NCBI GenBank assembly: GCA_903813345.2
Contig: CAIIXF020000012.1
Location: 33,430,572-33,494,571, forward strand
From: Owenia fusiformis
Taxonomy: Eukaryota > Annelida > Polychaeta > Sabellida > Oweniidae
Length of the DNA stretch: 64,000 nt
Direction of reading: 5' to 3'
The position numbers and the translations under genes are program-made. Below are positions 14,631 through 64,000 of the stretch, one piece after another (within the stretch, counting starts at the first letter, position 1; the number at the start of each line of letters is the position of its first letter). Below the pieces are notes generated by a model, which worked only from the letters and a program-made list of their open reading frames with translations, was not told where the DNA came from and searched no databases.

Positions 14631-14893
14631 TCAAACTTTGGTATCTCTTACTTTTTTCTGTGGGAAGACAAACTCATCCTCGGAAGATTCATCGTGATAT
14701 TCGCGTACATTTGAACGCAACAATTTTTTCTTATCTTGATTATTTGAGTATCCATAGAACTCTTCGTCAGAGTCCCCGTCTGTGGACTCTAATTTATGGA
14801 AGCCATTGATTGGTTTATAAGTTGCCGCCTGGCCCTTAGATTTTATCGCAATCACTAATGTCAAAAGTAGCAGCATTACTAGCAGGAAGGAAC
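14631..14893 (-). CDS. CPD: CPD exon 25: TM helix end and cytoplasmic tail with stop
   Basis: 263 nt, residues 1617-1703 and [23 protein letters not shown] completes the membrane helix. The tail carries FHKL and two acidic serine clusters ([16 protein letters not shown]). Such F-x-x-L and acidic/CK2-type elements are reported as trafficking signals of the vertebrate CPD tail (from memory), so a TGN-cycling role is inferred. An AT-rich 50-bp array lies just upstream of the acceptor. Confidence 0.92.
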
Positions 14894-17800
14894 CTGAAAA
14901 TTTCAATATTATGTATTTTCAATATTATGTATTTTCAATATTATAATGTTTTCAATATTATGTATTTTCCGGTTAATATGTATTTTCAATATTTTGTATG
15001 TTTAATATTCTGTATTTTCCGGTTAATATGTATTTTCAATATTTTGTATGTTTAATATTCTGTATTTTCCGGTTAATATGTATTTTCAATATTTTGTATG
15101 TTTAATATTCTGTATTTTCCGGTTAATATGTATTTTCAATATTTTGTATGTTTAATATTCTGTATTTTCCGGTTAATATGTATTTTCAATATTTTGTATG
15201 TTTAATATTCTGTATTTTCCGGTTAATATGTATTTTCAATATTTTGTATGTTTAATATTCTGTATTTTCCGGTTTATGTATTTTGAATATTTTGTATGTT
15301 TAATATTCTGTATTTTCAAGATTATGTATTTTTTAATATATTATGTTCATGTGTTTCCAATATCATGTATTTTCAAGATTATGTATTTTCAAGATTATGC
15401 ATTTCCAATATTATGCATTTTCAATACATGTATTTTCAAGTATGTATTTTCAACATTATGTATTTTCAATATTATGTATTTTCTTGGAACAGCATGTTGT
15501 TTAAAAATGGAACAAATATGTGTAACTTAAAAAAGAACAGCTGACATACAAAGTTTACATAGTTCTCACCTAGCAGCATCATGAAGACAAGAGAAGAATA
15601 ACCAAATATTTTATCTTCTGGCCTAAGGAGGATATCTAAATGTGCAGCGTGCTGCTGGTTGGACACCTGGACAGTCTGAAATGTAAAATTAATGTTAAAT
15701 TCTGAATAATGAAATTCATATCTAAACCATAAAAATGAAGCAAAGGTGTGGCTGGGATCTCAAAATAGGTGAGGCAATGTTAATTAAATAGGTGAGGCAA
15801 TGTTGATTAAATAGGTGAGGCAATGTTGATTAAATAGGTGAGGCATATCTAAAATGGTGTGGCAATGTTAATTAAATAGGTGAGGCATATCTAAAATGGT
15901 GTGGCAATGTTAATTAAATAGGTGAACCATATCTAAAATGGTGTGGCAATGTTAATTAAATAGGTGAGGCAATGTTGATTAAATAGGTGAGGCACAATTA
16001 AATAGGTGAGGCACATTTAAATAGGTGAGGCAATGTTGATTTAATAGGTGAGGCACATTTAAATAGGTGAGGCAATGTTGATTAAATAGGTGAGGCACAT
16101 TGAAAGTGGTGAGGCAAAACTGAGATTAAAGATATATGAAGTGGCCAAAATGAAGCAAAGGTGTGGCTGGGATCTCAAAATAGGTGAGGCAATGTTAATT
16201 AAATAGGTGAGGCAATGTTGATTAAATAGGTGAGGCAATGTTGATTAAATAGGTGAGGCATATCTAAAATGGTGTGGCAATGTTAATTAAATAGGTGAGG
16301 CATATCTAAAATGGTGTGGCAATGTTAATTAAATAGGTGAACCATATCTAAAATGGTGTGGCAATGTTAATTAAATAGGTGAGGCAATGTTGATTAAATA
16401 GGTGAGGCACAATTAAATAGGTGAGGCACATTTAAATAGGTGAGGCAATGTTGATTTAATAGGTGAGGCACATTTAAATAGGTGAGGCAATGTTGATTAA
16501 ATAGGTGAGGCACATTGAAAGTGGTGAGGCAAAACTGAGATTAAAGATATATGAAGTGGCCAATAGAAACCTTCATAGTTTCAGTTGAGAAAAATGTCTT
16601 AATATTTGTTTTTCTGATTATATTTGGTGAGGCTATTGCCTCATCTGCCTTGCCTTGCCTGCCTCATGTATGGCTACAACCATGTGCAGTTTTTCCTTAA
16701 TTCAAATTGTATTTCATAAAACAAAACTTGATTCGACATGTTAGATGAGACTGAAAATTCTTACCTGGGTCTGAGAAATGTGCCCAGGTGCAGAGATTTC
16801 TACTTGGTATTCACCAGGAGGCAGCACCAACCAATATTCTCCCGCGTTTTTATGAATCAATACATGGTGATTATGACCTTTGACCTCCACTTTAGCATCT
16901 TCAAGGAGAGTGTGGAAACGACCTTGTAATTTGCCACGAATACCATTGTGGACCTATAAATTATAACAATATCCTTATTTAAAAAATTGAAAATTGCACA
17001 AAGTTCTCAATACTAACCACATTAAATGCAATGTGCCACATGACCAATCATGCCCCTTGGCAAATGGGGCTTATTTTTCGACATTTACAGTCACTATGTA
17101 TCAGATTAAGGTACCTGTCTGATAACAGCCATTAAAGACTGTTCGTGCTCATTCCACAGCATTGCCAATGCGCTCTCAGTGGGGGCGTGGCAGCATCCCA
17201 AGTTGACTGTCAGCTCTAGACACTTGTGTGCCATGTAGTTGTAGCCCTGCAAGTGAACCAACATATCTTAACAGTGTGCAAATAGTTGCAAGAGTCAGAT
17301 ACTAGCATGACTAAAAATTTTGATTAAATGTACCAAAAGTTGCCAGGAGATTGTTACAAGAAAATCTGCTACTTTGAGTAACATTCATATCATCTTACCT
17401 ACAATTCCCAAGCAGTATGTTGTAATCTTACCTACTTTTCCCAAGTATGTTGTAATTTTACCCACATTGCCCAAGTATGTTGTAATTTTACCTACATTTC
17501 CCAATCATGTTGTAATTTTACCTACATTTCCCAAGTATGTTGTAATCTTACCCACATTTTCCAAGTATGTTGTAATCTTACCTACATTTCCCAATTATGT
17601 TGTAATTTAACCTACATTTTCCATTTATGTTGTAAGTTTGCTTACATTTCCCAAGTATGTTGTAATTTAACCTACATTACCCAAGTATGTTGTAATCTTA
17701 CCTACATTTCCAAAGAATGTTGTAATCTTACCCACACAACCCAAGTATGTTGTAATCTAACTACATTTACCAAATATGTTGTAATTTTGCATACATTTCC

Positions 17801-20800
17801 CAAGTATGTTGTCATTTTACCCACATTTCCAAAGTATGTTGTAATCTTACCCACATTTCCCAAGTATGTTGTAATCTTACCTACATTTACCAAATATGTT
17901 GTTATTTTGCCTACATTTCACAACTATGTTGTCATTTTACCCACATTTCCCAAGTATGTTGTAATCTTACCTACATTTCTCAAGTATGTTGTAATCTTAC
18001 CCACATTTCCAAAGTATGTTGTAATCTTACCTACATTTCCAAAGTATGTTGTAATCTTACCCACATTTCCTAAGTATGTTGTAATCTTACCTTCATTTCC
18101 CAAGTATGTTGTAATCTTACCCACATTTCCCAAGTATGTTGTAATCTTACCTACATTTCCCAAGTATGTTGTAATTTTACCCACATTTCCCAAGTATGTT
18201 GTAATTTTACCCACATTTTCCAAGTATGTTGTAATCTTACCTACATTTCCTAAGTATGTTGTAATCTTACCTGCATTTTGCCACAATGCTGTTTCCCAGT
18301 TGTAGCATTACCAGCTGTCTCCACAGGTGACTGCACACCTAGACAAACATAGTCAATAAACTAATTACTACCTATTGCTAAAATGTAATAGAACTTGAGT
18401 AACAAGTCATGAACAACAGAACTATTTCAATAATAGAATTGTGCGAAATCAAAGTGGAAAATTTCTGCAAGATGTTTCTTTTTAGATCACTGTACGACTA
18501 GCTTGAAGTTCAATGTGCCCCTGTATCAGTTTGTGTACAAACTATTCTAATATGATGTGAGGCTGTTCAAGAAAAACAAAGACCAAACCTTTTTTCTATT
18601 AATGTATAATGAGTAGAATACTAGATTGGGACTAAGAGAAAGTTTTCATATTGGGAGGTCTTCAGATATGAAAGATATTCAGATATACAACTCAAGTTCT
18701 AGTATACCTTTACCTTTGCACTCCGCTGACACTTGGTGTGTTGAATGATAACTGGTGTATATGTTTGCAAACTGGCGGAATATATCATCATGCTGTGTTA
18801 CATTCATCTTGGTATTGTTCCCATTATCTAAAATTCAACACAATTTTATGAATGTACAAAAAAAATGATTGTATATTTCAAAATGTACAATATAGATGGA
18901 GGGGTACACATCGAGTTAACAAAATTATTTGCTCTTCAGAATATCACTCGGTCAAAATGATAAATCATGAATTGTAGGATGTTAGTCATATCATTTAAGT
19001 CTACATTTCCGTGGTCATTTGTAAATCCATTTTGAAAAAGTTGAGTTTTATGTATATCATTTTATGGTGTTGCTTAAAGGCCCCATGTAGAGTTTGAAAA
19101 TATGTTTTTATCACTCATTTACTATTTTTCAGGAATTTAAAAGTTATTTTAGTTTAATATGCTATAGTCTACAATCTACAAAACATATGAACTAAAAAAA
19201 TCAAGTTGACTTACTCTTCATCTCGCTACATGGATATCTGACTAATGGAGCGCCACTTTGTAAGGCAATAGACAGGGAGAAGGGAATATCAGCCATCCAT
19301 CTTGTTACGGCAGAAGTCTCTGGTTGAAGGTCTGTATGCTTCATACATTTACCTTATAACATAAATACAGTACATTCAATATAACCAATTAAGAATGACA
19401 TGGATTAGATATAAGCACCACTTTGTAAGGCAATAGACAGGGAGAAGGGAATATCAGCCATCCATCTTGTTACAGCAGAAGTCTCTGGCTGAAGGTCTGT
19501 ATGTTTCATACATTTACCTTATAACATAAATACACTACATTCAATATAACCAATTAAGAATGACATGGATTAGATATAAGCGCCACTTTGTAAGGCAATA
19601 GACAGGGAGAAGGGAATATCAGCCATCCATCTTGTTACGGCAGAAGTCTCTGGCTGAAGGTCTGTATGTTTCATACATTTACCTTATAACATAAATACAC
19701 TACATTCAATATAACCAATTAAGAATGACATGGATTAGATATAAGCGCCACTTTGTAAGGCAATAGACAATGAAAAGGGAATATCAGCCATCCATCTTGT
19801 TACGGCAGAAGTCTCTGGCTGAAGTTCTGTAGGCTTCATACATTTACCTTATAACATAAATACAGTACATTCAATATAACCAATTAAGAATGAAATGGAA
19901 TAGATATAAGCACCACTTTGTAAGGCAATAGACAGGGAGAAGGGAATATCAGCCATCCATCTTGTTACGGCAGAAGTCTCTGGCTGAAGTTCTGTATGTT
20001 TCATACATTTACCTTATAACATAAATACAGTACATTCAATATAACCAATTAAGAATGACATGGAATAGATATAAGCACCACTTTGTAAGGCAATTGACAG
20101 GGAGAAGGGAATATCAGCCATCCATCTTGTTACGGCAGAAGTCTCTGGCTGAAGGTCTGTATGTTTCATACATTTACCTTATAACATAAATACAGTACAT
20201 TCAATATAACCAATTAAGAATGACATGGAATAGATATAAGCACCACTTTGTAAGGCAATTGACAGGGAGAAGGGAATATCAGCCATCCATCTTGTTACGG
20301 CAGAAGTCTCTGGCTGAAGGTCTGTATGTTTCATACATTTACCTTATAACATAAATACACTACATTCAATATAACCAATTAAGAATAACATGGAATAGAT
20401 ATAAATGCCACTTTGTAAGGCAATAGATAGAGAGAAAGGGATATCATTCATCCATCTTGTCATGGCAGAAGTCTCTGGCTGAAGGTCTGTATGCTTCACA
20501 CATTTACCTTATAACATAAATACATTACATTCAATATAACCAATTAAGAATAACATGGAATAGATATAAATGCCACTTTGTAAGGCAATAGATAGAGAGA
20601 AAGGGATATCATTCATCCATCTTGTCATGGCAGAAGTCTCTGGTTGAAGGTCTGTATGTTTCATACATTTACCTTATAACATAAATACATTACATTCAAT
20701 ATAACCAATTAAGAATGACATGGATTAGATATAAGCACCACTTTGTAAGGCAATTGACAGGGAGAAGGGAATATCAGCCATCCATCTTGTTACAGCAGAA

Positions 20801-23800
20801 GTCTCTGGTTGAAGGTCTGTATGTTTCACACATTTACCTTATAACATAAATACAGTACATTCAATATAACCAATTAAGAATGACATGGAATAGATATAAG
20901 CGCCACTTTGTAAGGCAATAGACAGGGAGAAGGGAATATCAGCCATCCATCTTGTTACGGCAGAAGTCTCTGGTTGAAGGTCTGTATGTTTCACACATTT
21001 ACCTTATAACATAAATACATTACATTAATTATAACCAATTAAGAATAACATGGAATAGATATAAATGCCACTTTGTAAGGCAATAGATAGAGAGAAAGGG
21101 ATATCAGCCATCCATCTTGTTACGGCAGAAGTCTCTGGCTGAAGGTCTGTATGCTTCACACATTTACCTTATAACATAAATACATTACATTCATTATAAC
21201 CAATTAAGAATGACATGGATTAGATATAAGCACCACTTTGTAAGGCAATTGAGAGGGAGAACGGAATATCAGCCATCCATCTTGTTACGGCAGAAGTCTC
21301 TGGCTGAATGTCTGTATGTTTCATACATTTACCTTATAACATAAATACACTACATTCAATATAACCAATTAAGAATGACATGGATTAGATATAAGCACCA
21401 ATTTGTAAGGCAATTGACAGAGAGAAGGGAATATCAGCCATCCATCTTGTTACAGCAGAAGTCTCTGGCTGAAGGTCTGTATGTTTCATACATTTACCTT
21501 ATAACATAAATACACTACATTCATTATAACCAATTAAGAATGACATGGAATAGATATAAGCACCAATTTGTAAGGCAATAGACAGGGAGAAGGGAATATC
21601 AGCCATCCATCTTGTTACAGCAGAAGTCTCTGGCTGAAGGTCTGTATGTTTCATACATTTACCTTATAACATAAATACACTACATTCAATATAACCAATT
21701 AAGAATGACATGGATTAGATATAAGCGCCACTTTGTAAGGCAATAGACAATGAAAAGGGAATATCAGCCATCCATCTTGTTACGGCAGAAGTCTCTGGCT
21801 GAAGGTCTGTATGTTTCATACATTTACCTTATAACATAAATACAGTACATTCAATATAACCAATTAAGAATGACATGGAATAGATATAAGCACCACTTTG
21901 TAAGGCAATTGACAGGGAGAAGGGAATATCAGCCATCCATCTTGTTACGGCAGAAGTCTCTGGCTGAAGGTCTGTATGTTTCATACATTTACCTTATAAC
22001 ATAAATACAGTACATTCAATATAACCAATTAAGAATGACATGGAATAGATATAAGCACCACTTTGTAAGGCAATAGACAGGGAGAAGGGGATATCAGCCA
22101 TCCATCTTGTTACGGCAGAAGTCTCTGACTGAAGGTCTGTATCAGCAGCTTCATATATTTACCTTATAACATAAATACAGTACATTCAATATAACCAATT
22201 AAGAATGACATGGATTAGATATAAGCGCGACTTTGTAAGGCAATAGACAGGGAGAAGGGAATATCAGCCATCCATCTTGTTACGGCAGAAGTCTCTGGCT
22301 GAAGGTCTGTAGGCTTCATACATTTACCTTATAACATAAATACAGTACATTCAATATAACCAATTAAGAATAACATGGATTAGATATAAGCACCACTTTG
22401 TAAGGCAATAGACAGGGAGAAGGGGATATCAGCCATCCATCTTGTTACGGCAGAAGTCTCTGGCTGAAGGTCTGTATGCTTCACACATTTACCTTATAAC
22501 ATAAATACACTACATTCAATATAACCAATTAAGAATGACATGGATTAGATATAAGCACCACTTTGTAAGGCAATAGACAGGGAGAAGGGGATATCAGCCA
22601 TCCATCTTGTTACGGCAGAAGTCTCTGGCTGAAGGTCTGTATGTTTCATACATTTACCTTATAACATAAATACAGTACATTAATTATAACCAATTAAGAA
22701 TGACATGGATTAGATATAAGCACCACTTTGTAAGGCAATAGAGAGGGAGAAGGGAATATCAGCCATCCATCTTGTTACGGCAGAAGTCTCTGGTTGAAGG
22801 TCTGTATGCTTCATGCATTTACCTTATAACATAAATACAGTACATTCAATATAACCAATTAGGAATGACATGGATTAGATATAAGCACCACTTTGTAAGG
22901 CAATAGACAATGAAAAGGGAATATCAGCCATCCATCTTGTTACGGCAGAAGTCTCTGGTTGAAGGTCTGTATGCTTGACACATTTACCTTATAACATAAA
23001 TACAGTACATTCAATATATAACCAATTAAGAATGACATGGAATAGATATAAGCGCCACTTTGTAAGGCAATAGACAATGAAAAGGGAATATCAGCCATCC
23101 ATCTTGTTACGGCAGAAGTCTCTGGTTGAAGGTCTGTATGCTTGACACATTTACCTTATAACATAAATACATTACATTCAATATATAACCAATTAAGAAT
23201 GACATGGATTAGATATAAGCACCACTTTGTAAGGCAATAGACAGGGAGAATGGAATATCAGCCATCCATCTTGTTACAGCAGAAGTCTCTGGTTGAAGGT
23301 CTGTATGTTTCATACATTTACCTTATAACATAAATACAGTACATTCAATATAACCAATTAAGAATGACATGGATTAGATATAAGCGCCACTTTGTAAGGC
23401 AATAGACAGAGAGAAGGGAATATCAGCCATCCATCTTGTCATGGCAGAAGTCTCTGGCTGAAGGTCTGTATGTTTCATACATTTACCTTATAACATAAAT
23501 ACACTACATTCAATATAACCAATTAAGAATGACATGGATTAGATATAAGCGCCACTTTGTAAGGCAATAGACAGAGAGAAGGGAATATCAGCCATCCATC
23601 TTGTTACGGCAGAAGTTTCTGGTTGAAGGTCTGTATGCATCACACATTTACCTTATAACATAAATACAATACATTCAATATAACCAATTAGGAATGACAT
23701 GGATTAGATATAAGCACCACTTTGTAAGGCAATAGACAATGAAAAGGGAATATCAGCCATCCATCTTGTTACGGCAGAAGTCTCTGGTTGAAGGTCTGTA

Positions 23801-26800
23801 TGTTTCATACATTTACCTTATAACATAAATACAGTACATTCAATATAACCAATTAAGAATGACATGGATTAGATATAAGCGCCACTTTGTAAGGCAATAG
23901 ACAGAGAGAAGGGAATATCAGCCATCCATCTTGTTACGGCAGAAGTTTCTGGTTGAAGGTCTGTATGCATCACACATTTACCTTATAACATAAATACAAT
24001 ACATTCAATATAACCAATTAGGAATGACATGGATTAGATATAAGCACCACTTTGTAAGGCAATAGACAATGAAAAGGGAATATCAGCCATCCATCTTGTT
24101 ACGGCAGAAGTCTCTGGCTGAAGTTCTGTATGTTTCATACATTTACCTTATAACATAAATACACTACATTCAATATAACCAATTAAGAATAACATGGAAT
24201 AGATATAAGCACCAATTTGTAAGGCAATAGACAGGGAGAAGGGAATATCAGCCATCCATCTTGTTAAGGCAGAAGTCTCTGGTTGAAGGTCTGTATGTTT
24301 CATACATTTACCTTATAACATAAATACAGTACATTCAATATATAACCAATTAAGAATGACATGGAATAGATATAAGCGCCACTTTGTAAGGCAATAGACA
24401 GAGAGAAGGGAATATCAGCCATCCATCTTGTTACGGCAGAAGTCTCTGGCTGAAGGTCTGTAGGCTTCATACATTTACCTTATAACATAAATACATAACA
24501 TTCAATATAACCAATTAAGAATGACATGGATTAGATATAATCCCCATTTTGTAAGGCAATAGACAATGAAAAGGGAATATCAGCCATCCATCTTGTTACA
24601 GCAGAAGTCTCTGGCTGAAGTTCTGTATGTTTCATACATTTACCTTATAACATAAATACAATACATTCAATATAACCAATTAGGAATGACATGGATTAGA
24701 TATAAGCACCACTTTGTAAGGCAATAGACAATGAAAAGGGAATATCAGCCATCCATCTTGTTACGGCAGAAGTCTCTGGCTGAAGTTCTGTATGTTTCAT
24801 ACATTTACCTTATAACATAAATACAATACATTCAATATAACCAATTAAGAATGACATGGATTAGATATAAGCACCACTTTGTAAGGCAATAGACAGAGAG
24901 AAGGGAATATCAGCCATCCATCTTGTTACGGCAGAAGTCTCTGGCTGAAGTTCTGTATGTTTCATACATTTACCTTATAACATAAATACAATACATTCAA
25001 TATAACCAATTAAGAATGACATGGATTAGATATAAGCACCACTTTGTAAGGCAATAGACAGGGAGAAGGGAATATCAGCCATCCATCTTGTTACGGCAGA
25101 AGTCTCTGGCTGAAGGTCTGTATGTTTCATACATTTACCTTATAACATAAATACAATACATTCAATATAACCAATTAAGAATGACATGGAATAGATATAA
25201 GCACCACTTTGTAAGGCAATAGACAGGGAGAAGGGAATATCAGCCATCCATCTTGTTACAGCAGAAGTCTCTGGCTGAAGTTCTGTATGTTTCATACATT
25301 TACCTTATAACATAAATACACTACATTCAATATAACCAATTAGGAATGACATGGATTAGATATAAGCACCACTTTGTAAGGCAATAGACAGGGAGAAGGG
25401 AATATCAGCCATCCATCTTGTTACGGCAGAAGTCTCTGGCTGAAGTTCTGTATGTTTCATACATTTACCTTATAACATAAATACACTACATTCAATATAA
25501 CCAATTAAGAATAACATGGAATAGATATAAGCACCAATTTGTAAGGCAATAGACAGGGAGAAGGGAATATCAGCCATCCATCTTGTTACAGCAGAAGTCT
25601 CTGGCTGAAGTTCTGTATGTTTCATACATTTACCTTATAACATAAATACAATACATTCAATATAACCAATTAGGAATGACATGGATTAGATATAAGCACC
25701 ACTTTGTAAGGCAATAGACAATGAAAAGGGAATATCAGCCATCCATCTTGTTACGGCAGAAGTCTCTGGCTGAAGTTCTGTATGTTTCATACATTTACCT
25801 TATAACATAAATACACTACATTCAATATAACCAATTAAGAATGACATGGAATAGATATAAGCACCACTTTGTAAGGCAATAGACAGGGAGAAAGGAATAT
25901 CAGCCATCCATCTTGTTAAGGCAGAAGTCTCTGGTTGAAGGTCTGTATGTTTCATACATTTACCTTATAACATAAATACAATACATTCAATATAACCAAT
26001 TAAGAATGACATGGAATAGATATAAGCGCCACTTTGTAAGGCAATAGACAGGGAGAAGGGAATATCAGCCATCCATCTTGTTACGGCAGAAGTCTCTGGC
26101 TGAAGTTCTGTATGTTTCATACATTTACCTTATAACATAAATACACTACATTCAATATAACCAATTAAGAATGACATGGATTAGATATAAGCGCCACTTT
26201 GTAAGGCAATAGACAGGGAGAAGGGAATATCAGCCATCCATCTTGTTACGGCAGAAGTCTCTGGCTGAAGGTCTGTATGTTTCATACATTTACCTTATAA
26301 CATAAATACAATACATTCAATATAACCAATTAAGAATGACATGGAATAGATATAAGCACCACTTTGTAAGGCAATAGACAGGGAGAAAGGAATATCAGCC
26401 ATCCATCTTGTTACGGCAGAAGTCTCTGGCTGAAGGTCTGTATGTTTCATACATTTACCTTATAACATAAATACAATACATTCAATATAACCAATTAAGA
26501 ATGACATGGAATAGATATAAGCACCACTTTGTAAGGCAATAGACAGGGAGAAGGGAATATCAGCCATCCATCTTGTTACAGCAGAAGTCTCTGGCTGAAG
26601 TTCTGTATGTTTCATACATTTACCTTATAACATAAATACAATACATTCAATATAACCAATTAAGAATGACATGGATTAGATATAAGCACCACTTTGTAAG
26701 GCAATAGACAGGGAGAAAGGAATATCAGCCATCCATCTTGTTACAGTAGAAGTCTCTGGCTGAAGTTCTGTATGTTTCATACATTTACCTTATAACATAA

Positions 26801-53800: not shown

Positions 53801-56800
53801 GTGGTGCAACTGGATCTGGTAAAACAACACAAGTTCCACAGTTTCTATATGAAGCTGGATATGCTCAGTAAGTTCCTTTATGAAATACTATTATGTACAA
53901 TAAACCTATATTTCTGAGCACCCTGTAGTCATTCTATGTGGTGCAACATGATCGGGTAAAACAACACAAGTTCCACAGTTTCTGTATGAAGCTGGATATG
54001 CATAGTAAGTTCTTTTATGAAACAATATTATGTCCAGTAAAACCTGTATTTCTGAGCACCCTGTAGTTATCCTATGTTGTGCAACTGGGTCTGGTAAAAC
54101 AACACAAGTCCCTCAGTTTCTATATGAAGCTGGATTTGCTCAGTAAGTTCCTTTATGAAATACTATTATGTACAATAAACTTGTATTTCTGAGCACTCTG
54201 TAGTTATCCTATGTGGTGCAACTGGGTCGGGTAAAACAACACATTAAGTTCCTCAGTTTCTATACGAAGCTGGATATGCTCAGTAAGTTCCTTTATGAAA
54301 CAATATTATGTACAGTAAAACCTGTATTTCTGAACACCCTGTTGTCATTCTATGTGGTGCAACTGGGTCTGGTAAAACAACACAAGTTCCACAGTTTCTA
54401 TATGAAGCTGGATATGCTCAGTAAGTTCCTTTATGAAACAATATTATGTACAATAAAACCGGTATTTCTGAACACCCTGTAGTTATCCTTTGTGGTGCAA
54501 CAGGATCTGGTAAAACAACACATTAAGTTCCTCAGTTTCTGTATGAAGCTGGATATGCTCAGTAAGTTCCTTTATGTCATGTACAGTAAAACCTGTATTT
54601 CTGAACACCCTGTTGTCATTCTATGTGGTGCAACTGGGTCTGGTAAAACAACACATTAAGTTCCTCAGTTTCTGTATGAAGCTGGATATGCACAGTAAGT
54701 TCTTTTATAAAACACTATTGTGTACAATAAAACCTGTATTTCTGAACACCCTGTTGTCATTCTATGTGGTGCAACAGGATCTGGTAAAACAACACATTAA
54801 GTTCCTCAGTTTCTGTATGAAGCTGGATATGCTCAGTAAGTTCATATGAAATATACAATAAAACCACCTCAAAAAACCACCATTCAATTCAATCACCTCT
54901 CTAACCTACTGGCTTTAGACTTCCAAAAAGAATCTGGAAATGCAAACACCTTCCATTGGGAACACTGAACACCTCTATGGCATTTGGATTAAGCAGGTTA
55001 AAAGGTAGTTAGTAGGTTAAATCACATCTCCGTAAAACCTTGTAATAATGGGTTATATTTTACAATTTAACTGGGCCATATGTGGAATGAAAAAAATGAC
55101 TTGAAAACATGATTGCCCAATTTACCGTATTGGCATTCAGTCCATTGCCCAATAGGCAACTTCTTTTTTGTAATTTAATTGCCAAGAGTTAAATTGATTG
55201 CCATTTGGATTAAACAGGTTTAAAGGTAGTTAGTAGGATAAATCACATCTCTGTAAAACCTTGTAATAATGGGTCATATTTTACAATTTAACTGGGCCAT
55301 ATGAGGAATGAAAAAGTGGCTGTTTTGAGCAGCCCATGTACCAGGGTTCATGACTTGAAAACATGATTGCCCAATTTAAAATATTGGCATTCAGTCTATT
55401 GCCCAATGGGCAAACAGTTTTTCATATTACTATTGGCAATGATGCAGCTGTTTCTATGTCTAAAGTTGAAAACATGATTGCCCAATTTACCATATTGGCA
55501 TTCAGTCCATTGCCCAATAGGCAAACAGTTTTTCAAAATTCATTGCCAAGAGTGAAAATCATTGGTAGTCAGGCAGCTATGAGTTTGGAACCCTTACATG
55601 AACTCTTGATGATTCTTGCCCAATAGGCAAGTAGTTTTTCCTATTACTGTGGGCAATGATGCAACTGTTTCTATGTCTAAGGTTAAAACATGATTGCCCA
55701 ATTTACCATATTGGCATTCAGTCCATTGCCCAACAGGCAAAAAGTTTTTCAAAATTCATGGCCAATAGTGAAAATCATTGGTAGTCAGGCAGCTATGAGT
55801 TTGGAACCCTTGCCTTATATGAACTCCTGATGATTCTTGTTTGTTTCAGTGATGTTGGGATGATTGGAATCACAGAGCCAAGGAGGGTGGCAGCTATTAG
55901 TATGTCAAGGCTCTTAATAATTCTTGTTTGTTTCAGTGATGTTGGGATGATTGGAATCACAGAGCCAAGGAGGGTTGCAGCTATTAGTATGTCAAGGCTC
56001 TTAATAATTCTTGTTTGTTTCAGTGATGTTGGGATGATTGGAATCACAGAGCCAAGGAGGGTGGCAGCTATTAGTATGTCAAGGCTCTTAATAATTCTTT
56101 TGTGTTTCAGTGATGTTGGGATGATTGGAATCACAGAGCCAAGGAGGGTGGCAGCTATTAGTATGTCAAAGCGGGTCGGCACTGAACTGAATCTCTCTAC
56201 ACGGTAATTAATGCCGAGTTATGCCAATGAATTTTTTTTGATTTGACTTACTTTTGCAATTTGACCTTTTTTAGCAACTCAATTTTAATGACTGCCAAAT
56301 TAAACCAAAATGATGGAAGTCAAAATAAGTTTTCAGTGCATAACAAATTATCTGTGATTTGTGAACGAAGGCATCAGCTTAAATTTTCACCATGTAAGTC
56401 CATCAAACGGTGACATATTGTTATAGTCTCAACTTTTTTGTGGATGGTGTTTGGGGGTTGGCATTTGTAACATCACACAACAGTCAGTGTTTGTAACAGC
56501 ATTCAGCATCTGACGGTCAGCATCTGTAACAAACGGCAGGTGGTGACATTTTACATGTTGATGCATTTTTGTTTGTTTGTTCGCTCAGTTGTTTGATTGT
56601 CATTTGTGACTTTGATCATGTTTTAGTGAGGTGTCTTACCAGATTAGATACGAAGGGAACACAACTCCAGATACCAAACTGAAGTTCATGACTGATGGAG
56701 TTCTCCTGAAAGAAGTCCAGAAAGTAAGTCCTTGTAGAACTCTCTTTTTATATCTCATCAGTGGTGGATTGATACATGTTGTAAGCTCCTAGTATTACCT

Positions 56801-59800
56801 TTTCTGCTTGTAATAAAGAAGATATCAAAACCTGAAAGCCATGCTTGGAAAAGGACTAAAATCATGTTTGCTGTTCAGTCAGTTTCTAGAGACCATATAC
56901 ACCATAAAAGTGGCATGTGCACTCTTTAGAGAGAAAACAGTGAATAGCAGAGGTCGGGTAATTTCGGGTTGGGTCAGAAGAAAACAGAACAATGAATTCC
57001 GACACCTCTAGTGGATAGGAAGAAGTATTTTCTTGTTTGAGTTCATCTTATATTTTAGGATTTTCTCTAATATTTTAGGATTTTCTCTATTATTTTAGGA
57101 TTTTCTCCTCAGTAAGTACAGTGTGATCATAATTGACGAGGCTCACGAGCGCAGCATTTACACAGACATTCTCATTGGTCTACTTTCTAGGATTGTACCT
57201 CTCAGACACAAGGTATGTAGCATCATTTGCAGTTGTTAGTGATCTTTCATTTCCACTCTAAAAAGGTTAAAGGCCTCATGCAAAGTTAGAATATATTATT
57301 TAATTTTACATGGGACATTTCCTTTAAGATGTCTACTATTGTTAATAAATTTAGTGCTATTACATAAAGGGAAAAAAGAAGAAAATGGCTGCTTTGTTTT
57401 TTTCATGACTTGTAGTAACCAAAAACATTTTAGAATACAAAATGTGAAAAAAATCTTTAAAAAGTTAAAGCTATAAGTTGTGTGCATGTATATGTATTAT
57501 GTTGTCCCACTCTCTGTAATGAAACCAGTTATAAACATATATGTTGTCCCACTCCTAATGTAAAAATGAAGGTATAAGTATTTTGGAAGTTGGAATGTGA
57601 ATGGATTCTACCCTTTGTCTCATGACATCTGCTTTTCACTCTTACAGAAAGGCTCCCCTCTGAAGCTGGTCATCATGTCTGCAACACTGAGAGTGGAGGA
57701 TTTTACTGAGAACTCTCGCCTCTTTAAGATAAAACCACCAGTTATAGAGGTAAGGAAAAAATAGTTAAAGAGGTAAGATAAAAACAGTTAATAGAGGTAA
57801 GATAAAAACAGTTAATAGAGGTAAGATAAAAACAGTTAATAGAGGTACATTAGAAACTGGTATGATGTTATAGATATAAGATGAAAGAGATTGGTATAAT
57901 ATAAGGGTTATATAAAAGAAAAGTTTTGGAGGCAAAATTAGACTGTTATTCTTGAAATAAATCATTTTAAAAACAACTTCAGTGGTATTTATATCAACAT
58001 TTTCGAGGCAATTTTCTTGTCTGACAACTTACGCTATCTGTGTTATTTATTTATAGATTGAGTCCAGGCAGTTTCCAGTGACTATGCATTTTAACAAACA
58101 CACCCCCCAAGAAAATGCCTACCTAAATGAGGCCTACAGAAAGGTCTGTAAAATACACCGGTCCTTACCAGAGGGAGGGATACTAGTTTTTGTAACAGGC
58201 CAGCAAGAAGTGAACACATTGTGCCGGAAAATACGTGAAACGTTTAAGAGCAAGTTGTCTGACACAAAAAATAAAGGTATGCTACCCTGTAAATGCTTGT
58301 ATGTTACTGTACTTTAACTGAAATTAACTTAATTTGGCGGCCATTTGAATTTTCTGGGATCCGCCAAATTGTTTAAGTCAGCCAAATTAAGTCGCTACCG
58401 AATTCCCTGGTAATTTTAGTAACATGTAAATTAGTACCAGTACATTGTAATATTGCAAGTCTGCCAAATAAAGTAGCCGACAAATGTTCAAAACAGCAAA
58501 TCTGCCAAAATAAGTGGCGCCAAATTAAGTGGATGGATCAGGTAGAGCTGGGGAGCTATGATGGTAGTGGAATGGAACGGATTTTGGAATTTGCATTTAG
58601 AATTCTAAATTTATGGAACTTCAAAACTAATTGACATATTTCAATTCGTAAATAAAGTTTTTTTCAAAAATGTACACTATGAAATCGTAAAATTGATTGA
58701 AAATCATGGTATTTTGAATTTTTACAGTGAATTTTTATAATTTGAATGCATTACCAATTTTCTGGTCATTTTTAAGAATAATGTTTTATGTAGATTCACA
58801 ACCCCTCTCAAGATGGCGATTCAATCAAAATGCCAATTTTCTTTTTTAAAATATTGCCTTTCTGTAGATGGATATTTTTATATCATATGTTTATCTGGAA
58901 GAATTTGCTACTCTGATTGGAAGTGCGTAAATTTTGTATTTCATTGAATTGTAAAATAACTTGTTTCAGCTGTCAAGGAAGATGACAAAGAATCTAGTCA
59001 GATGAAGACAAAAATTCCCAGGGTGCAACTTGATGATTATTCTGTTCTCCCTGAAGATGATGAGTTATCGGAGCAAGATGGTGCTCATGGTAACAACCAA
59101 TCAGATGAAGAGCTCTCAGAGCCTGATGACGATGATACTTTTGTAAGAGAATCAATAATTTATACAATAACTAGATTACAGATAAAAGTTAATATTATAA
59201 CATTTGTCAAAATTGGAAATGAAATTAGATGAAATTAAAGTTTTGTCAAGACTTTTGAAAGTTTCCTATAAATGATAATGATTATCTCCAAAATGAGATG
59301 ATGTTCACTGGTTTGCCATCAGTTTACCCAACTGAAAATCATTTCAATTGTAGGTTTATACAAGTTTTGTTGTATTTCATTTATTGTATTCTAGGATGGT
59401 ATGATCAATTATATTGCCCAAGGAATACTTCCAATATCCTGGCCCTCATATAGAATAACCTTTACATTTTTTATTCTAGGATGATGTCTCTAGAGAGCCA
59501 GGTGACTCACAGAACCCGATCTATGTTCTTCCTCTCTACTCCATGTTACCAACACATAAACAAGCCAAGGTAAATATCTTATTTACATTGCTTCCTGTTC
59601 AGATTAATTTTGAGTTTTTGTATTTAATTGGGTTCCATTGATGTTTTTAGTGATTCGCTTAAATTTTTATTAGAAAAATACCTATTTGATCTGTATAAGT
59701 GTTTCCAATATGCTGGGATTGTCCGAGTCGACAGAAAGGGCAAAGCAAGCCATATGATACAAAAAATCAATTGTGTTAAAGATAAGTTCACCGTTTCTGG

Positions 59801-62800
59801 ATTGCTGTGCATTTGTATGAAATATAACTTTATTCTCAAAGTTATTCTGGAAATTCCTATGTATTCTTTGTATTGTAGGTGTTTGAGGCGCCCCCTGCTG
59901 GCCATAGACTAGTAGTTGTTGCTACAAATGTGGCAGAAACATCACTCACAATACCGAACATTAAATATGTGGTTGACACTGGAAAGGTAGGTAAACTAGT
60001 AGTAGTTGCTACAAATGTGGCAGAAACATCATTTACAATACCTAATGTTCACACTGGAAAAGTAGTAAATTAAGTTTAAATCATTATGTCTTCGATGAAA
60101 TTCCCAAATATTTGCCAGAAACTAGATCTAGATAAATACTGACAAGAAAAATATCAAAAGTTGTTGAATATGTTCCTTTTGGTTCAACAAGAGAGAATAT
60201 GTGGTTAATTATGTTTTTTGGTTCTTTAGTTCCTGATTTCTTAAGCATAGATGTATAGATGCATTTACCAGTGAAGAATGCAATTGCGGTAAAACTTGTA
60301 TATTTTTTGATTCCATTTTAGCAAATCTTGATATTTGAACACCTGCTAATCCAAACACTTTTGGCTGATCCCAATGGTGGTCAGACTAGCTAGATAGGTT
60401 TTACTCTACAGGTCCATAGCCAGGATTTGCCAAGAGTGTTCACTTTTTGAAAAATTCCAGGGGGGTTATCTTGTGAACATTCTGGTCCACAAATGGCCAA
60501 AACACTTAAAAAGTGCTCAGAATGCTCTATATGAATATTAGTTGAATTATTTGATTGCGCACCTTTCAGGTGAAGACGAAGTTCTATGATAAAGTGACAG
60601 GAGTGTCCTCCTTTAAGATCACATGGACATCTAAGGCATCAGCCAATCAGAGGGCAGGAAGAGCTGGTCGAACAGGTCCGGGTCACTGCTACAGGTAAGG
60701 TTGCATCTGATTTCGATTTATAAAAGTCACAAGGGTGACCAAGATTACAAGTCATGTACATATAATGTCCACCTATTTGATCTCAGATGACTGTCATTGA
60801 AAGGAGCATGTAGGTTATCGCAAACAATTTCAAACAATTCTAACTTTAATTATGAATATTTTCTGATCATGAACATGGGTGTATCTTTTAGATCCATTCA
60901 TTATCTTCAAGAAAAGTATATATAATCATAATTTAGTTAATCAGACCTAAGTGATATTGAAGGGGCAATGGACCAATCAACATACTTTTTCAAAAATGTT
61001 GACCTAATTTTCACCAAAAATGCAACCTATTATTATATTGTCTATTATAAGAACTATTTGATAAGCATGTGGATAACCCACATGCTCCTTTTCCAACTTT
61101 TCTCTGTTTTGAGAAATAAATGATTTTGAAGTCAGTCACATTTGTATCACTGAGTATGTTGTTTAGAACTCACCTTGTGAGTGGTGTATTCTTCATGTAT
61201 AATTTGGCTGTACATGTTCAGTGAGTAATGTTTCTGTTTTTTCATTGACAAATGTATTGCAGGTTGTATTCTTCAGCTGTATTCAATGATGAATTTGAAC
61301 TGTTCTCTTCCCCAGAGATCACTAGACGTCCAGTAGATGACCTTCTGCTCCTAATGAAGGTGAGTATAAAGAGGGGAAAATACCCAAATTCATAGGTGAA
61401 CCTATTTCCGTATAAAAATGAACATACAGAAAATCTTCTTTATACTGAGATTGGTTCATATTTTAATTCTGGGATATTTCCCTATAATTCCATGATTCCA
61501 TGAACACTTGAGTGAATCTTCTTTATATAGATGTCATCTTTTAATGATATCGTTACTGACTGTTTTGTGAAAAAGTGCTGTATGTCACTGTAGTTTTAAT
61601 AAAACCAAAAGTTTATTTTTGAGCTTTTCTTATGTTTTTTGCAGGACCTCAATATTGATAAAGTGGTGAATTTCCCATTTCCTAGCCCTCCAGATAGACT
61701 AGCTTTGAAGGTAAGCTTTTTTAATTTCCAAGTTTACTTCAAAAAATCATTGAATCTTTAAAATAGATTGAATTGCCAACAAGGTTAATAGATTGACATT
61801 AGTGGCAAAATACCAATCACAGTAAAACCTGTGAAATTCAAACTTTAACACTTTTGGTACTTCTTAAATTTCTTCCACTTTGGAGGTCCTCCATTTGCAG
61901 ACGTTCATGCAACATTATGCATCGCACAAAAAATACCCTATCACATGCAGCAGTATTAAGTATTGAGTCATTTGGTAATATGTAGTGGGACTCTGAAAAG
62001 TGTCATAAATATTGGTGTGTTTCATATTACAAGTCTCACTGCAGAATGTATCTGATATTTGAACAAAACAAACTATTGATATTTGATCATATAGATATCT
62101 TGACATTGATGTAATTCATTTCAGGCTGCTGAAAAACTACTGCTATCACTAGGGGCCTTGGAGCCCCCTGCTAAACCTCAAAAACCCACACGAAAATCCC
62201 AGAGAGCTGAAATGGACAATCCTAGTGCAAGAATATCTCCTTTAGGGCGTGCCATGGCATGTTTCCCAGTGGCTCCTCGATATGGCAAGATGCTATCTCT
62301 TGGTACGCAGACACTTAAAATATATGAAACATACTAGCTTTAGTATATGCAAAATCAATGCAGAAATGTAGTTTGAATTACTGCCCATAGGTGACACCAA
62401 TGTTTTTATTTGAACATCCTAAACTAAAAAAGGAAAACAAATATTCACTCTCAAAATAATTTAAAATCTGAAATGGAATTGTTTTTTTAGGCCATCAACA
62501 CAACCTTCTGCCCTATGTGATAGCCCTAGTGGCTGCCCTGTCTGTGCAAGAACTTTTTGTGGAGATAGGAGAGCCACCTATTGATGAAACTGAGAAGCAA
62601 GCTTGGAAGAATCGGGTTGGAAAAATGGTCATGTTGAAGAAGACATGGGCTGGGCAGGTATATTATATCAGCTAACTGTTAAATTAATCAATGTATACCC
62701 TCCCCTCCAAAAGTTTGTCAGCGGAAGGTTTTAATTTGATAGTATGTCAAATCCTGTCAATGAATTTAGTTCCTTAATTACAATTGTTCAGAAATATATG

Positions 62801-64000
62801 ACTGATGAATTATTATGTCACTATTAGAAGAGGTGACATGGTGACCTGTCACATGTTGACAGGTGACATGTTGTTATGGTCTCCAACTTTTTTTGTGGTC
62901 TGTGATCGGCATTCGGCGTCTATGACAAATGCCAGGTGGGGACATTTGGCATGTCAATGCCTTGTTTTAAATGCCGACACAAAAACTTGCTTTAATATGT
63001 TGTTATGGTCTCCAACTTTTGTGAACTGTGTTTGGCATTCGGCGTCTGTAACAAATGTCGGTAGGGGCCATCATTGTAGAATAGAGTGTATGGGAAATGA
63101 ATGGCAAGTCTACAACTATATTGACAGCTATATATTCAACCAGTTCTGACATCACTCTGACCCTTGTGATATATCCTGGTAATTATTTTGCTCTTGTAAT
63201 ATGCTTATGGTTTTTTTTATGTGCAGGTTTTTTATGTGCCTAATTTTTGTAGAGAATAAATGAAAAAAATAAGTAAAAAGATAAATTAATAAACTTGAGC
63301 TATTCGTCATCCAGTCCACCTCATTTTGCACAATATTATTAATACATTTTCAGGGCCAAAGTGCATTGCTAGGGGACCCGATGGTGCTTTTGAAGGCAGT
63401 AGGAGCATGTGAATACTGTTGCACTGTATTATTAATACATTTTCAGGGCCAAAGTGCATTGCTAGGGGACCTGATGGTGCTTTTGAAGGCAGTAGGAGCA
63501 TGTGAATACTGTTGTACTGTATTATTAATACATTTTCAGAGCCAAGTGCATTGCTAGGGGACCCGATGGTGCTTTTGAAGGCAGTAGGAGCATGTGAATA
63601 CTTTTGTACTGTATTATTAATACATTTTCAGGGCCAAAGTGCATTGCTAGGTGACCTGTTGGTGCTTTTGAAGGCAGCAGGAGCATGTGAATACTGTTGT
63701 ACTGTATTATTAATACATTTCAGGGGCAAAGTGCATTGCCAAGGGACCTGTTGGTGCTTTTGAAGGCAGCAGGAGCATGTGAATACTGTTGTACTGTATT
63801 ATTAATACATTTTTAGGGCCAATGTGCATTGCTAGGGGACCTGATGGTGCTTTTGAAGGCAGTAGGAGCATGTGAATACTGTTGTACTGTATTATTAATA
63901 CATTTTCAGGGCCAAAGTGCATTGCTAGGGGACCTGATGGTGCTTTTGAAGGCAGTAGGAGCATGTGAATACGCTGGCTGCTCCACAGACTTCTGCTTCC
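50794..64000 (+). CDS. DHX37: DHX37 / Dhr1-type DEAH-box RNA helicase (5' 18 exons; continues past window)
   Basis: DEAH-box ATPase/helicase of the nucleolus. The family (yeast Dhr1/Ecm16, human DHX37) dismantles U3 snoRNA-pre-18S pairing during 40S subunit assembly. Eighteen exons with consistent GT-AG junctions give about 894 residues. Visible in order: basic N terminus; acidic/Ser-rich region (exon 3); motif [10 protein letters not shown] (300-308); motif Ia TEPRRVA (about 329-335); DEAH (397-400); SAT (433-435); acidic insertion (exon 10); motif V ATNVAETS; motif [10 protein letters not shown] (680-687); then winged-helix/HA2 sequence up to the window end. An in-frame stop at 50752 supports the ATG at 50794 (G at -3, G at +4). 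Human DHX37 is about 1157 residues, so roughly the last quarter lies outside. Intronic copies of several exons are described separately. Confidence 0.97.
50925..51005. mobile_element. CCCAGAATTCA foldback family (copy in DHX37 intron 1)
   Basis: Right arm GGTTCATCTTTGAATTCTGG with a diverged left arm (CTCAGAATTTACA). Confidence 0.5.
51155..51337 (+). CDS. DHX37: DHX37 exon 2
   Basis: 61 codons, residues 28-88. Contains [11 protein letters not shown] and [18 protein letters not shown], the conserved basic region before the helicase core of DHX37 proteins. Confidence 0.93.
51480..51700. repeat. Inverted repeat in DHX37 intron 2
   Basis: GATATTCAATGGAAGTCAC and GTGACTCCATTGAATATC-like arms (about 51571-51606) make a stem-loop. 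Probably a MITE remnant. Confidence 0.5.
51774..52322 (+). CDS. DHX37: DHX37 exon 3: acidic/serine-rich region
   Basis: 183 codons, residues 89-271. Starts [19 protein letters not shown] (conserved), then a low-complexity stretch rich in Ser, Asp, Glu and Lys, predicted disordered. Ends TSEIQ|GTAAAA. Confidence 0.92.
52618..52766 (+). CDS. DHX37: DHX37 exon 4: P-loop (motif I); parent of the 137-bp array
   Basis: 149 nt, residues 272-320 plus two bases. Encodes [20 protein letters not shown] and then [19 protein letters not shown]. The donor GCCCA|GTAAGT leads into exon 5. The 3' two thirds with this donor is repeated about 15 times downstream (52770-54845). Confidence 0.95.
52770..54845 (+). 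repeat. 137-bp array of the DHX37 P-loop exon 3' part with donor, about 15 copies
   Basis: Each unit has CTGTATTTCTGA(G/A)CACCC, the P-loop coding segment and GCTCA|GTAAGTTCC. The Walker A codons vary: intact in about half, changed in others (GGG to AGG, AAA to CAA near 53265), with a TGA near 53947. A TTA insertion creating TAA occurs in copies near 54240, 54520, 54655 and 54795 but not in the copy near 54380. Entering a copy after exon 4 would hit a stop (CAC ACC CTG TAG), so the copies cannot be simple cassette exons. Confidence 0.93.
55090..55800. repeat. Tandem and dispersed repeats in DHX37 intron 4
   Basis: Four diverged units containing ATGATTGCCCAATTTA, ATATTGGCATTCAGTC, TTGCCCAATAGGCAA and ATTGGTAGTCAGGC. 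Same family as 35530-35665. Confidence 0.8.
55837..56110 (+). repeat. 87-bp in-frame array of the DHX37 exon 5 acceptor, three extra copies
   Basis: Acceptors TTGTTTCAG|TGATGTTGG at 55850, 55937 and 56024 precede 63 nt of exon 5 (to SMS) and a 24-nt intronic piece with a TTTGTTTCAG tract. The period is exactly 29 codons and has no stop, so using an earlier acceptor adds 29, 58 or 87 residues in frame, each with another TEPRRVAA. Confidence 0.93.
56111..56203 (+). CDS. DHX37: DHX37 exon 5: motif Ia; most 3' of four tandem copies
   Basis: 93 nt. Encodes [20 protein letters not shown] then [10 protein letters not shown]. Only this copy continues past ISMS into the conserved [10 protein letters not shown], so it must contribute the exon end. 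Equivalent acceptors lie exactly 87, 174 and 261 bp upstream (exon starts 56024, 55937, 55850), all in frame and without stops. Confidence 0.93.
56395..56575. repeat. Dispersed repeat, same family as 1796-1925 (inverted)
   Basis: GGTGACATATTGTTATAGTC, TTTGTAACA and GCAGGTGGTGACATTTTACA in reverse order to the 1796 copy. Confidence 0.7.
56627..56723 (+). CDS. DHX37: DHX37 exon 6
   Basis: 97 nt. Encodes [11 protein letters not shown] and [17 protein letters not shown] (motif Ib region, FMTDG). Donor CAGAAA|GTAAGT. Confidence 0.94.
57050..57098 (+). repeat. 20-bp triplication of the DHX37 exon 7 acceptor
   Basis: TATTTTAGGATTTTCTC occurs three times (57051, 57071, 57091). The first two acceptors would shift the frame. 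Confidence 0.9.
57099..57212 (+). CDS. DHX37: DHX37 exon 7: DEAH motif
   Basis: 38 codons. [19 protein letters not shown] carries Walker B/DEAH at residues 397-400. The acceptor region TATTTTAG|GATTTTCTC is present three times with 20-bp spacing (57059, 57079, 57099). Only the last keeps the frame. Confidence 0.95.
57648..57749 (+). CDS. DHX37: DHX37 exon 8: motif III
   Basis: 34 codons. [15 protein letters not shown] contains SAT (433-435), coupling ATP hydrolysis to unwinding. The donor ATAGAG|GTAAGG is followed by three more GTAAGA-type donor copies at 23-24 bp spacing and a decayed fifth. Confidence 0.95.
57750..57850 (+). repeat. 23-24-bp array of the DHX37 exon 8 donor
   Basis: After the true donor at 57750, GAG|GTAAGA recurs at 57773, 57797 and 57821, and decays to GTACAT at 57845. 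A TAG lies in frame in the first unit, so use of later donors would truncate. Confidence 0.92.
58057..58276 (+). CDS. DHX37: DHX37 exon 9: start of RecA2
   Basis: 220 nt. [19 protein letters not shown] then [20 protein letters not shown], the conserved DEAH-family RecA2 entry (motif IV region). Donor AATAAAG|GTATGC. Confidence 0.94.
58330..58530. mobile_element. 200-bp MITE with CTTAATTTGGCG ends
   Basis: CTTAATTTGGCGGCCA and TGGCGCCAAATTAAG are inverted; several GCCAAATTAAGT and GCCAAATAAAGT units lie inside. Confidence 0.65.
58970..59142 (+). CDS. DHX37: DHX37 exon 10: acidic insertion
   Basis: 173 nt. [14 protein letters not shown] is a DHX37 landmark (human INLDHYSVLP, from memory), followed by an acidic stretch to DDDDTF. 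The family has a variable acidic insertion here. Confidence 0.92.
59480..59569 (+). CDS. DHX37: DHX37 exon 11
   Basis: 30 codons ending [17 protein letters not shown], the conserved segment before motif V. A short echo of its acceptor (TATTCTAGGATG) lies at about 59388. Confidence 0.92.
59879..59986 (+). CDS. DHX37: DHX37 exon 12: motif V
   Basis: 36 codons. [20 protein letters not shown] then [17 protein letters not shown] partial, diverged copy of its 3' half sits just downstream in the intron (59996-60072). Confidence 0.94.
59996..60072 (+). repeat. Diverged partial copy of DHX37 exon 12
   Basis: TAGTAGTTGCTACAAATGTG and on to ACTGGAAAAGTAG repeat motif V ([11 protein letters not shown]) ten bases after the true donor. 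The IKYVVD part is shortened to VH. Confidence 0.85.
60300..60540. repeat. Dispersed repeat fragments in DHX37 intron 12
   Basis: GTAAAACTTG, GAACACCTGCTAATCCAAAC (family also at 29270, 36550, 43860) and CCATAGCCAGGATTTGCCAA with AAAATTCCAGGGGGG (family also at 35205). Confidence 0.55.
60570..60694 (+). CDS. DHX37: DHX37 exon 13: motif VI
   Basis: 125 nt. [20 protein letters not shown] then [18 protein letters not shown]; the arginine fingers lie in QRAGRAGR (680-687). Confidence 0.95.
61263..61359 (+). CDS. DHX37: DHX37 exon 14
   Basis: 97 nt. [20 protein letters not shown] then [12 protein letters not shown], start of the winged-helix region. Confidence 0.94.
61375..61495. mobile_element. 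CCCAGAATTCA foldback family (copy in DHX37 intron 14)
   Basis: TACCCAAATTCATAGGTGAA on the left and GGTTCATATTTTAATTCTGG on the right, with short inner inverted segments. Confidence 0.6.
61645..61710 (+). CDS. DHX37: DHX37 exon 15
   Basis: 22 codons, [22 protein letters not shown], with the FPFPSPP landmark of the family. Confidence 0.94.
62125..62302 (+). CDS. DHX37: DHX37 exon 16: ratchet/HA2 region
   Basis: 178 nt. [15 protein letters not shown], then [20 protein letters not shown]. Donor TCTTG|GTACGC. Confidence 0.93.
62491..62657 (+). CDS. DHX37: DHX37 exon 17
   Basis: 167 nt. [20 protein letters not shown] and [13 protein letters not shown]2-type sequence. Donor GGGCAG|GTATAT. Confidence 0.93.
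62830..63085. repeat. Two copies of the 1796-type dispersed repeat (inverted)
   Basis: TTGTTATGGTCTCCAACTTT and GGCATTCGGCGTCT occur twice (about 62870 and 63000), each followed by ACAAATG(C/T)C. Confidence 0.7.
63340..63909 (+). repeat. 93-bp in-frame array of the DHX37 exon 18 acceptor, six extra copies
   Basis: Exon-like starts at 63354, 63447, 63540, 63632, 63724 and 63817 precede the true one at 63910. Each unit is CATTTTCAG|GGCCAAAG plus coding sequence to CEY, then a 30-nt spacer with TACATTTTCAG. A 93-bp unit is 31 codons without a stop; the two 92-bp intervals break the frame for the earlier copies. Confidence 0.93.
63910..64000 (+). CDS. DHX37: DHX37 exon 18 (cut by window end); last of seven copies
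   Basis: [20 protein letters not shown] then [10 protein letters not shown]. Only this copy continues past CEY into the conserved AGCSTDFC; six earlier copies (from 63354) diverge there. Confidence 0.93.

Follow-up and report, generated by a model that had tools for sequence, protein, structure and literature searches.

Repeated splice junctions in CPD and DHX37

The stretch of DNA analysed here, which we call the window, covers 64,000 nucleotides of the genome of the annelid Owenia fusiformis (contig CAIIXF020000012.1; C12:33430572-33494571) and contains two genes, CPD (minus strand) and DHX37 (plus strand), in which tandem or partial copies of exon-intron boundaries lie within the adjoining introns. 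Exons were mapped through their reading frames; GT/AG sites that let the frames join were then chosen by hand as exon boundaries. This gave 25 exons for CPD and 18 for DHX37, the last of which is cut by the window end, and 82 splice junctions for the two genes together; in the resulting models both proteins are open throughout. The name DHX37 is supported for exon 7, which best matches the DHX37 chains of solved structures, whereas we take the other gene to be CPD from the carboxypeptidase-like sequence of its translation.

Copies that include the splice site were found at 10 of the 82 junctions. Seven were detected by self-BLAST (E ≤ 0.1, with at least 6 nt on each side of the junction), namely CPD exons 8 (5' splice site), 19 (3') and 21 (5'), and DHX37 exons 4 (5'), 5 (3'), 8 (5') and 18 (3'); Tandem Repeats Finder (TRF) contributed the 3' splice site of DHX37 exon 7, and direct reading the 3' splice site of CPD exon 5 and the 5' splice site of DHX37 exon 12. 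At the thresholds used, no further copied junction was found among the 82. The preliminary description of this DNA had named these ten boundaries, with unit sizes from 20 to 165 bp and up to about 51 copies, and all of this was borne out, the highest copy number being that of CPD exon 19. The copies are the following.

40089..40148, minus strand: CPD exon 5 (39897-40088), 3' splice site and first 32 nt of the exon, one extra copy directly upstream, with the decoy AG intact (read; under the self-BLAST threshold)
35923..36060, minus strand: CPD exon 8 (36044-36186), 5' splice site; the 29 nt of 36032-36060 recur unchanged at 35923-35951, which is 109 nt downstream of the true site (self-BLAST)
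19249..27823, minus strand: CPD exon 19 (19215-19331), 3' splice site, 165-bp array of 51.9 copies, the unit being the end of intron 18 and the first 83 nt of the exon (TRF, self-BLAST)
17392..18278, minus strand: CPD exon 21 (18271-18338), 5' splice site, 30-bp array of 29.5 copies, the unit being the last 8 nt of the exon and the intron start (TRF, self-BLAST)
52671..54843, plus strand: DHX37 exon 4 (52618-52766), 5' splice site, 138-bp array of 15.8 copies, the unit being the last 96 nt of the exon and the 5' splice site (TRF, self-BLAST)
55833..56169, plus strand: DHX37 exon 5 (56111-56203), 3' splice site, 87-bp array of 3.9 copies, the unit being the 3' splice site and the first 59 nt of the exon (TRF, self-BLAST)
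57046..57107, plus strand: DHX37 exon 7 (57099-57212), 3' splice site and exon start, 20-bp array of 3.1 copies, with two decoy AGs (TRF)
57725..57847, plus strand: DHX37 exon 8 (57648-57749), last 25 nt of the exon and 5' splice site, 24-bp array of 5.1 copies, with five decoy GTs (read) (TRF, self-BLAST)
59905..60060, plus strand: DHX37 exon 12 (59879-59986), end of the exon and 5' splice site region, one extra partial copy with an internal deletion (read)
63334..63972, plus strand: DHX37 exon 18 (from 63910), 3' splice site and first 63 nt of the exon, 93-bp array of 6.9 copies (TRF, self-BLAST)
34208..34711, minus strand: near CPD exon 10 (33836-34203), 32-bp array of 15.8 copies that stops about 5 nt before the exon and repeats the pyrimidine-tract region without the AG; not counted (TRF)

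A further array (14901-15483) stops about 8 nt before CPD exon 25 and likewise leaves out the AG. As for CPD itself, its translation (window 14634-50431, minus strand) seemingly holds four carboxypeptidase-like units, as judged from domains read by eye; the HGNE motif is kept in all of them except unit 3, which has LNGDD in its place. Intron 1 contains an inverted pair of very similar open frames (44263-44679, plus, and 45745-46101, minus, about 1.1 kb apart), possibly a mobile-element remnant, and another CPD intron (window 15732-16563) a 415-bp duplication with a 100% match, built of repeats of about 42 bp, which is a nested, recent block duplication.

Arrays at junctions of other genes

Outside the window, exons were predicted in 40 independent loci that were not chosen for arrays: 8 CCT/HSP60, 8 myosin, 8 MCM, 4 DEAH helicase and 12 proteasome loci, drawn from family and protein searches of the genome and picked by compactness, prior to fetching their sequence. 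For prediction we used a small spliced-exon finder that had learned from the window, with the family matches as anchors. For CCT/HSP60, 8 of 13 loci were taken, leaving out those at C222, C12:35.25 Mb and C7:13.37 Mb and two with long open frames, as well as most of one fetched gene of this set. Eight of about 18 myosin loci were counted, and the muscle myosin locus, which was also fetched and read, is outside the count; 4 of about 10 DHX paralogs were taken, the DHX37 copies aside; all 8 MCM loci were included, minus one distant exon, and 12 of the 13 proteasome loci. One false exon, in a CCT gene (L010), was removed prior to counting, and a few boundaries that were suspect by eye were retained (among them the donor of the first exon in one myosin locus and the last exon of one DHX locus).

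Duplications detected by BLAST or TRF cross 15 of the 326 predicted junctions in these loci (about 5%): 7/100 in the CCT/HSP60 set, 4/164 in the myosin-MCM-DHX set and 4/62 in the proteasome set. The claim that local duplication across exon-intron borders recurs in unrelated genes is therefore supported by the window and the 40 other loci alike. The rate in the window (10/82) exceeds that of the 40 loci (P 0.015, in a test that used 15/340), and its density is partly the selection of a striking case, the window having been picked for this very feature. Examples of the additional arrays are listed here.

L010, CCT gene, exon 5 donor: 53 bp, 20 copies
L005, CCT gene, exon 2 acceptor: 83 bp, 9 copies, exon parts identical
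L039, proteasome gene, exon 2 acceptor: 94 bp, 7.8 copies

At one more proteasome locus (C4:31700200-31710199, minus strand), a 127-bp unit over an exon donor occurs in three separate blocks, all lying between the same pair of predicted exons; the blocks are 97-99% identical, and the largest has a 254-bp dimer period.

Altogether, 20 TRF arrays cross junctions in 42 loci, with periods of 17-260 bp and 1.9-51.9 copies. In all 20 the exon part of the unit (8-97 nt) is shorter than the exon. When TRF, BLAST-only and read cases of the window and the other loci are taken together, 12 donor and 13 acceptor junctions are affected, that is, neither side is preferred (binomial P 1.0).

Geometry of the arrays

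According to the preliminary description, units with a 3' splice site lie upstream of the complete exon and units with a 5' splice site downstream, as a rule from which protection of the coding sequence on one side was read. The geometry is as described. It is not an empirical regularity, however, being forced by head-to-tail duplication over a single boundary: since tandem copies read intron-exon, intron-exon, intron-exon, rest of exon, acceptor units come to lie upstream and donor units downstream, and the complete exon is necessarily last in an array of 3' sites and first in an array of 5' sites. The edge rule, as a consequence of tandem duplication, is therefore uninformative on protection of coding sequence, and such protection is not supported as a property of the process. 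Arrays wholly inside an exon are nearly absent (1 observed vs. 15.1 expected from random placement without constraint), which is ordinary purifying selection.

Enrichment at junctions

Boundary-spanning arrays were compared with random placement in the independent loci (119 TRF arrays and 340 junctions, the outermost ones included). For the null, every TRF array was reduced to a single unit, which was given a random position in the collapsed locus; positions within an exon, or covering an entire exon, were rejected. All P values of this section are uncorrected for the several cuts made and are based on the gene models of this analysis. While 106 of the 119 arrays cross no annotated junction, 13 do so, as compared to 6.4 expected (P 0.008). 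The excess is seen in the CCT/HSP60 set (7 vs. 2.8, P 0.018) and is slight in the 20 myosin-MCM-DHX loci (3 vs. 2.1, P 0.35) and in the 12 proteasome loci (3 vs. 1.5, P 0.18). It becomes stronger when the count is restricted to arrays with a period of at least 20, a score of at least 60 and at least 3 copies (8 vs. 2.3, P 0.001), and extends to arrays that cross a junction or end at most 15 nt from it (19 vs. 11.1, P 0.012). Of the window's TRF arrays, 7 cross a junction, as compared to 3.6 expected (P 0.04); pooled with the independent loci, the count is 20 vs. 10.0 (P 0.002).

A neutral copy paired with a constrained exon copy should decay more slowly, which would inflate the number of boundary arrays. 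This bias is not the main cause of the excess, which stays when only arrays with at least 90% unit match are considered (9 vs. 3.4, P 0.004). A constraint on reading frame does not hold as a general rule either: the period is divisible by 3 in 6 of the 7 TRF boundary arrays of the window, but only in 3 of the 13 of the independent loci. The roughly 2-fold excess at junctions is thus likely to be real, but it is modest and is no proof that junctions seed arrays. The wording of the preliminary description, in which the arrays were "seeded by splice junctions", goes beyond an enrichment of this size that is moreover uneven between gene sets.

Decoy splice sites

As had been proposed, the arrays create many decoy splice sites. 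In 16 arrays (from the window, CCT and myosin-MCM-DHX sets), 149 of 159 decoys keep AG or GT; 51 of the 159 come from a single array, and the search, made by similarity to the true site including its dinucleotide, is slightly biased toward intact sites. Three proteasome arrays are outside this count, and a 17th array, which gave no decoy at the threshold, was read by eye. Two small arrays are without any intact decoy (0/2 and 0/1). On a weight matrix built from the 41 donors and 41 acceptors of the window, many decoys score as high as the true site. No overall sign of selection to inactivate decoys was found in the 16 arrays, and their intactness is what would be expected if they are unused and neutral. 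In all 10 donor cases examined (of 12), a stop follows within 84 nt when the frame is continued from the true exon into the intron, so that a decoy donor, if used, would mostly lead to a truncated protein.

The array of CPD exon 19 deserves a separate description. Here, at a stricter threshold, all 50 of 50 decoys have an intact AG, followed after 144-146 nt by a strong donor-like AAGGTAAA, and 48 of the 50 resulting pseudoexons contain an in-frame stop. The true acceptor of exon 19 is itself weak (score 2.2). The decoy dinucleotide is conserved in 100% of units, as compared to 96% in the other columns.

Paralogs and turnover of the arrays

The 3' half of DHX37 has five partial paralogs (L011-L015, C12:33.506-33.673 Mb) downstream of the gene on the same strand, within 180 kb; some of them are without certain exons or carry deletions. 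Copies of the exon 18 acceptor are repeated in all five, with copy numbers that are lower bounds, the fetched stretches ending inside the arrays. Exon 12 was present in three of the fetched stretches: L015 has three complete extra copies, while L011 and L013 have one partial copy, like the window. Since exon 18 and exon 12 copies are common to paralogs, the duplication probably predates the paralogs, and copy numbers have changed in the meantime. The difference in copy number itself (three complete extra copies of exon 12 vs. one partial) was seen between paralogs only.

In the array of DHX37 exon 4, mean unit identity drops with distance from 0.87 to 0.79, as expected for stepwise local duplication. 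Three array units searched against the genome matched only inside their own arrays, among the best candidate regions scored; the same unit was thus not found at unrelated loci, and an introner or other mobile element is not supported as the source.

Origin and persistence of the arrays

We propose, with a probability of roughly 0.66, that the arrays are mirages, that is, minisatellites that arose by ordinary local tandem duplication over one exon-intron boundary and are tolerated as half-exons. An ordinary short duplication (about 20-260 bp) would happen to cover one boundary, and the array would then grow or shrink, as the paralogs show for exon 12, by further duplication, deletion or unequal exchange of units. 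Duplication inside an exon would break the protein, and that of a whole exon would give an additional one. The arrays would survive because each unit carries just one of the two authentic splice sites of the exon: exon definition presumably joins the true 3' site to the true 5' site over the complete exon, leaving half-exon units in the intron. In favour of the proposal are the three searched units, matched only in their own arrays, the partial exon in all 20 TRF arrays, the even division between donor and acceptor junctions, the near absence of arrays inside exons, the copy-number differences at exon 12 and the largely intact decoys. Several observations weigh against it. That only the edge site is used in splicing is a step that we infer, and intact decoys could instead mean use. 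A donor-like GT is found within 30-400 nt of 69 of the 80 decoys in 9 acceptor arrays (downstream of 50/50 decoys at CPD exon 19 and of 7/7 in array P1); for these many units, "half-exon" is therefore not strictly true, and exon definition alone may not explain why the units are silent. Whole-exon arrays are absent, but only 1.3 were expected, so this absence shows nothing. Finally, the excess at junctions is beyond what a purely neutral account predicts.

This last point may be explained in two rival ways, and the confidences given to them overlap, both being accounts of one and the same excess. On a tentative alternative, junctions would be true hotspots, at which tandem duplication starts or expands through some process connected with transcription or with splicing (stalled polymerase, R-loops, exon nucleosomes or repair using nascent RNA); in this annelid lineage, it is possible, though we would not rely on it, that junctions genome-wide give birth to or expand arrays at about 2-3 times the intronic rate. 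The excess in the independent loci, its increase in the multi-copy subset and its extension to arrays ending near junctions argue for such a process, and its persistence at 90% match or above indicates that a slower decay of exon copies explains at most part of it. The unevenness of the excess between gene sets argues against it, the absence of a preference for the 5' or 3' site excludes a single splice motif as the trigger, and the P values carry the limits stated above. If the hotspot reading were true, several percent of all junctions would lie beside intact decoy arrays, which would be a continuing natural test of how the spliceosome chooses the edge site, as well as a lasting supply of new introns and exons. 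The other account, pure chance, we consider somewhat unlikely: in a minisatellite-rich, exon-dense genome, boundary arrays would be a random fraction, of which the window was noticed as an extreme. TRF arrays indeed make up 15% of the 292 kb examined, random placement alone gives the 6.4 crossings expected in the independent set, and the window rate lies above that of the remaining loci; yet the pooled excess, which includes the window, is not accounted for, and it is stronger in the multi-copy subset.

That some arrays are used, their decoys acting as regulated poison exons or alternative ends, is improbable. The case for it is best made at CPD exon 19, where about 50 tandem pseudoexons, nearly all with a stop and lying before a weak true acceptor, would lower CPD expression when included; on the other hand, dinucleotide conservation in that array is little over that of the other columns, and the papers on amphioxus mirages state that these apparently leave splicing undisturbed (PMC3087553, PMC3902484). 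An assembly artefact is very improbable. Arrays that reach 8.6 kb do pose difficulties for assembly, and one of eight arrays examined (L005) has identical exon parts in its 9 copies, but units differ in the other seven (mean identity at fixed distance 0.71-0.98), the copies of exon 18 recur in five paralog loci and those of exon 12 in three, and two-copy forms exist too.

Comparison with known systems

Structures of related kinds are known. In human segmental duplications, variable tandem repeats at an exon-intron boundary may form new introns (PMC2812944); the position at the boundary is the same as here, but those repeats are mostly inside exons and alter the protein or transcript, whereas the copies described here are intronic and leave the reading frame unchanged. 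In the Rogers model, named in PMC3087553, introns are gained when a segment with proto-splice sites is duplicated in tandem. Splice signals are copied by tandem duplication in both cases, but the model makes a new intron in coding sequence, while here the copies remain in an existing intron. Whole-exon tandem duplication, giving mutually exclusive exons, also involves local duplication of exon sequence; in such clusters each copy is a whole exon with its own diverged open frame, whereas here the unit is a partial exon with one authentic splice site, and a mutually exclusive exon cluster was rejected for the arrays, the exon part being shorter than the exon in each of the 20 TRF cases. The muscle-type myosin heavy chain gene (L016 and L017, C9:37986009-37994334, minus strand) provides what looks like a large cluster of that sort: 12 copies of one N-terminal head-domain exon in about 8.3 kb, mostly open and diverged in protein sequence, two of which look identical also in the 110 nt upstream.

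The closest counterpart is the mirage of amphioxus, described in PMC3087553 and PMC3902484 from a handful of lancelet genes: the globins BflGb6 (150-160 bp units, acceptor side) and BflGb9 (donor side), Adh3 (10-72 bp), PGBD5 and TnC. Regular splicing is apparently undisturbed by these mirages, which have been proposed as raw material for new introns (PMC3087553, PMC3902484). The Owenia arrays share their characters, being minisatellite-like tandem units that lie over one boundary, either 5' or 3', and retain AG or GT in many units; unit lengths (10-160 bp in amphioxus) are similar, and copy number varies between copies in both. At the level of sequence the arrays thus match amphioxus mirages, and the class is not new, although the preliminary description knew of no described genome-wide process of this kind. 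In the open-licence literature, consulted largely through search listings, we recognised no report of mirage arrays in annelids. Against an amphioxus origin of the window itself stand three genome matches above the cut-off for the erythrocruorin-linker family, which is an annelid family, and, weakly, the lack of a GFP-family match in a search whose control gave none either; COX1 was looked for and not found. Their presence at 15 of 326 junctions in unselected annelid loci, a first rate for such arrays, suggests that mirages are no lancelet oddity. Junctions with up to 51 near-identical intact decoys amount to natural experiments on how splice sites are chosen and on exon definition; they also bear on the idea that arrays feed intron gain. 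With respect to the amphioxus cases described in those papers, the present ones come from an annelid and include an array that is longer, with 52 units; a rate has been estimated and enrichment tested, and change in copy number is seen through paralogs, where in amphioxus it was seen through haplotypes.

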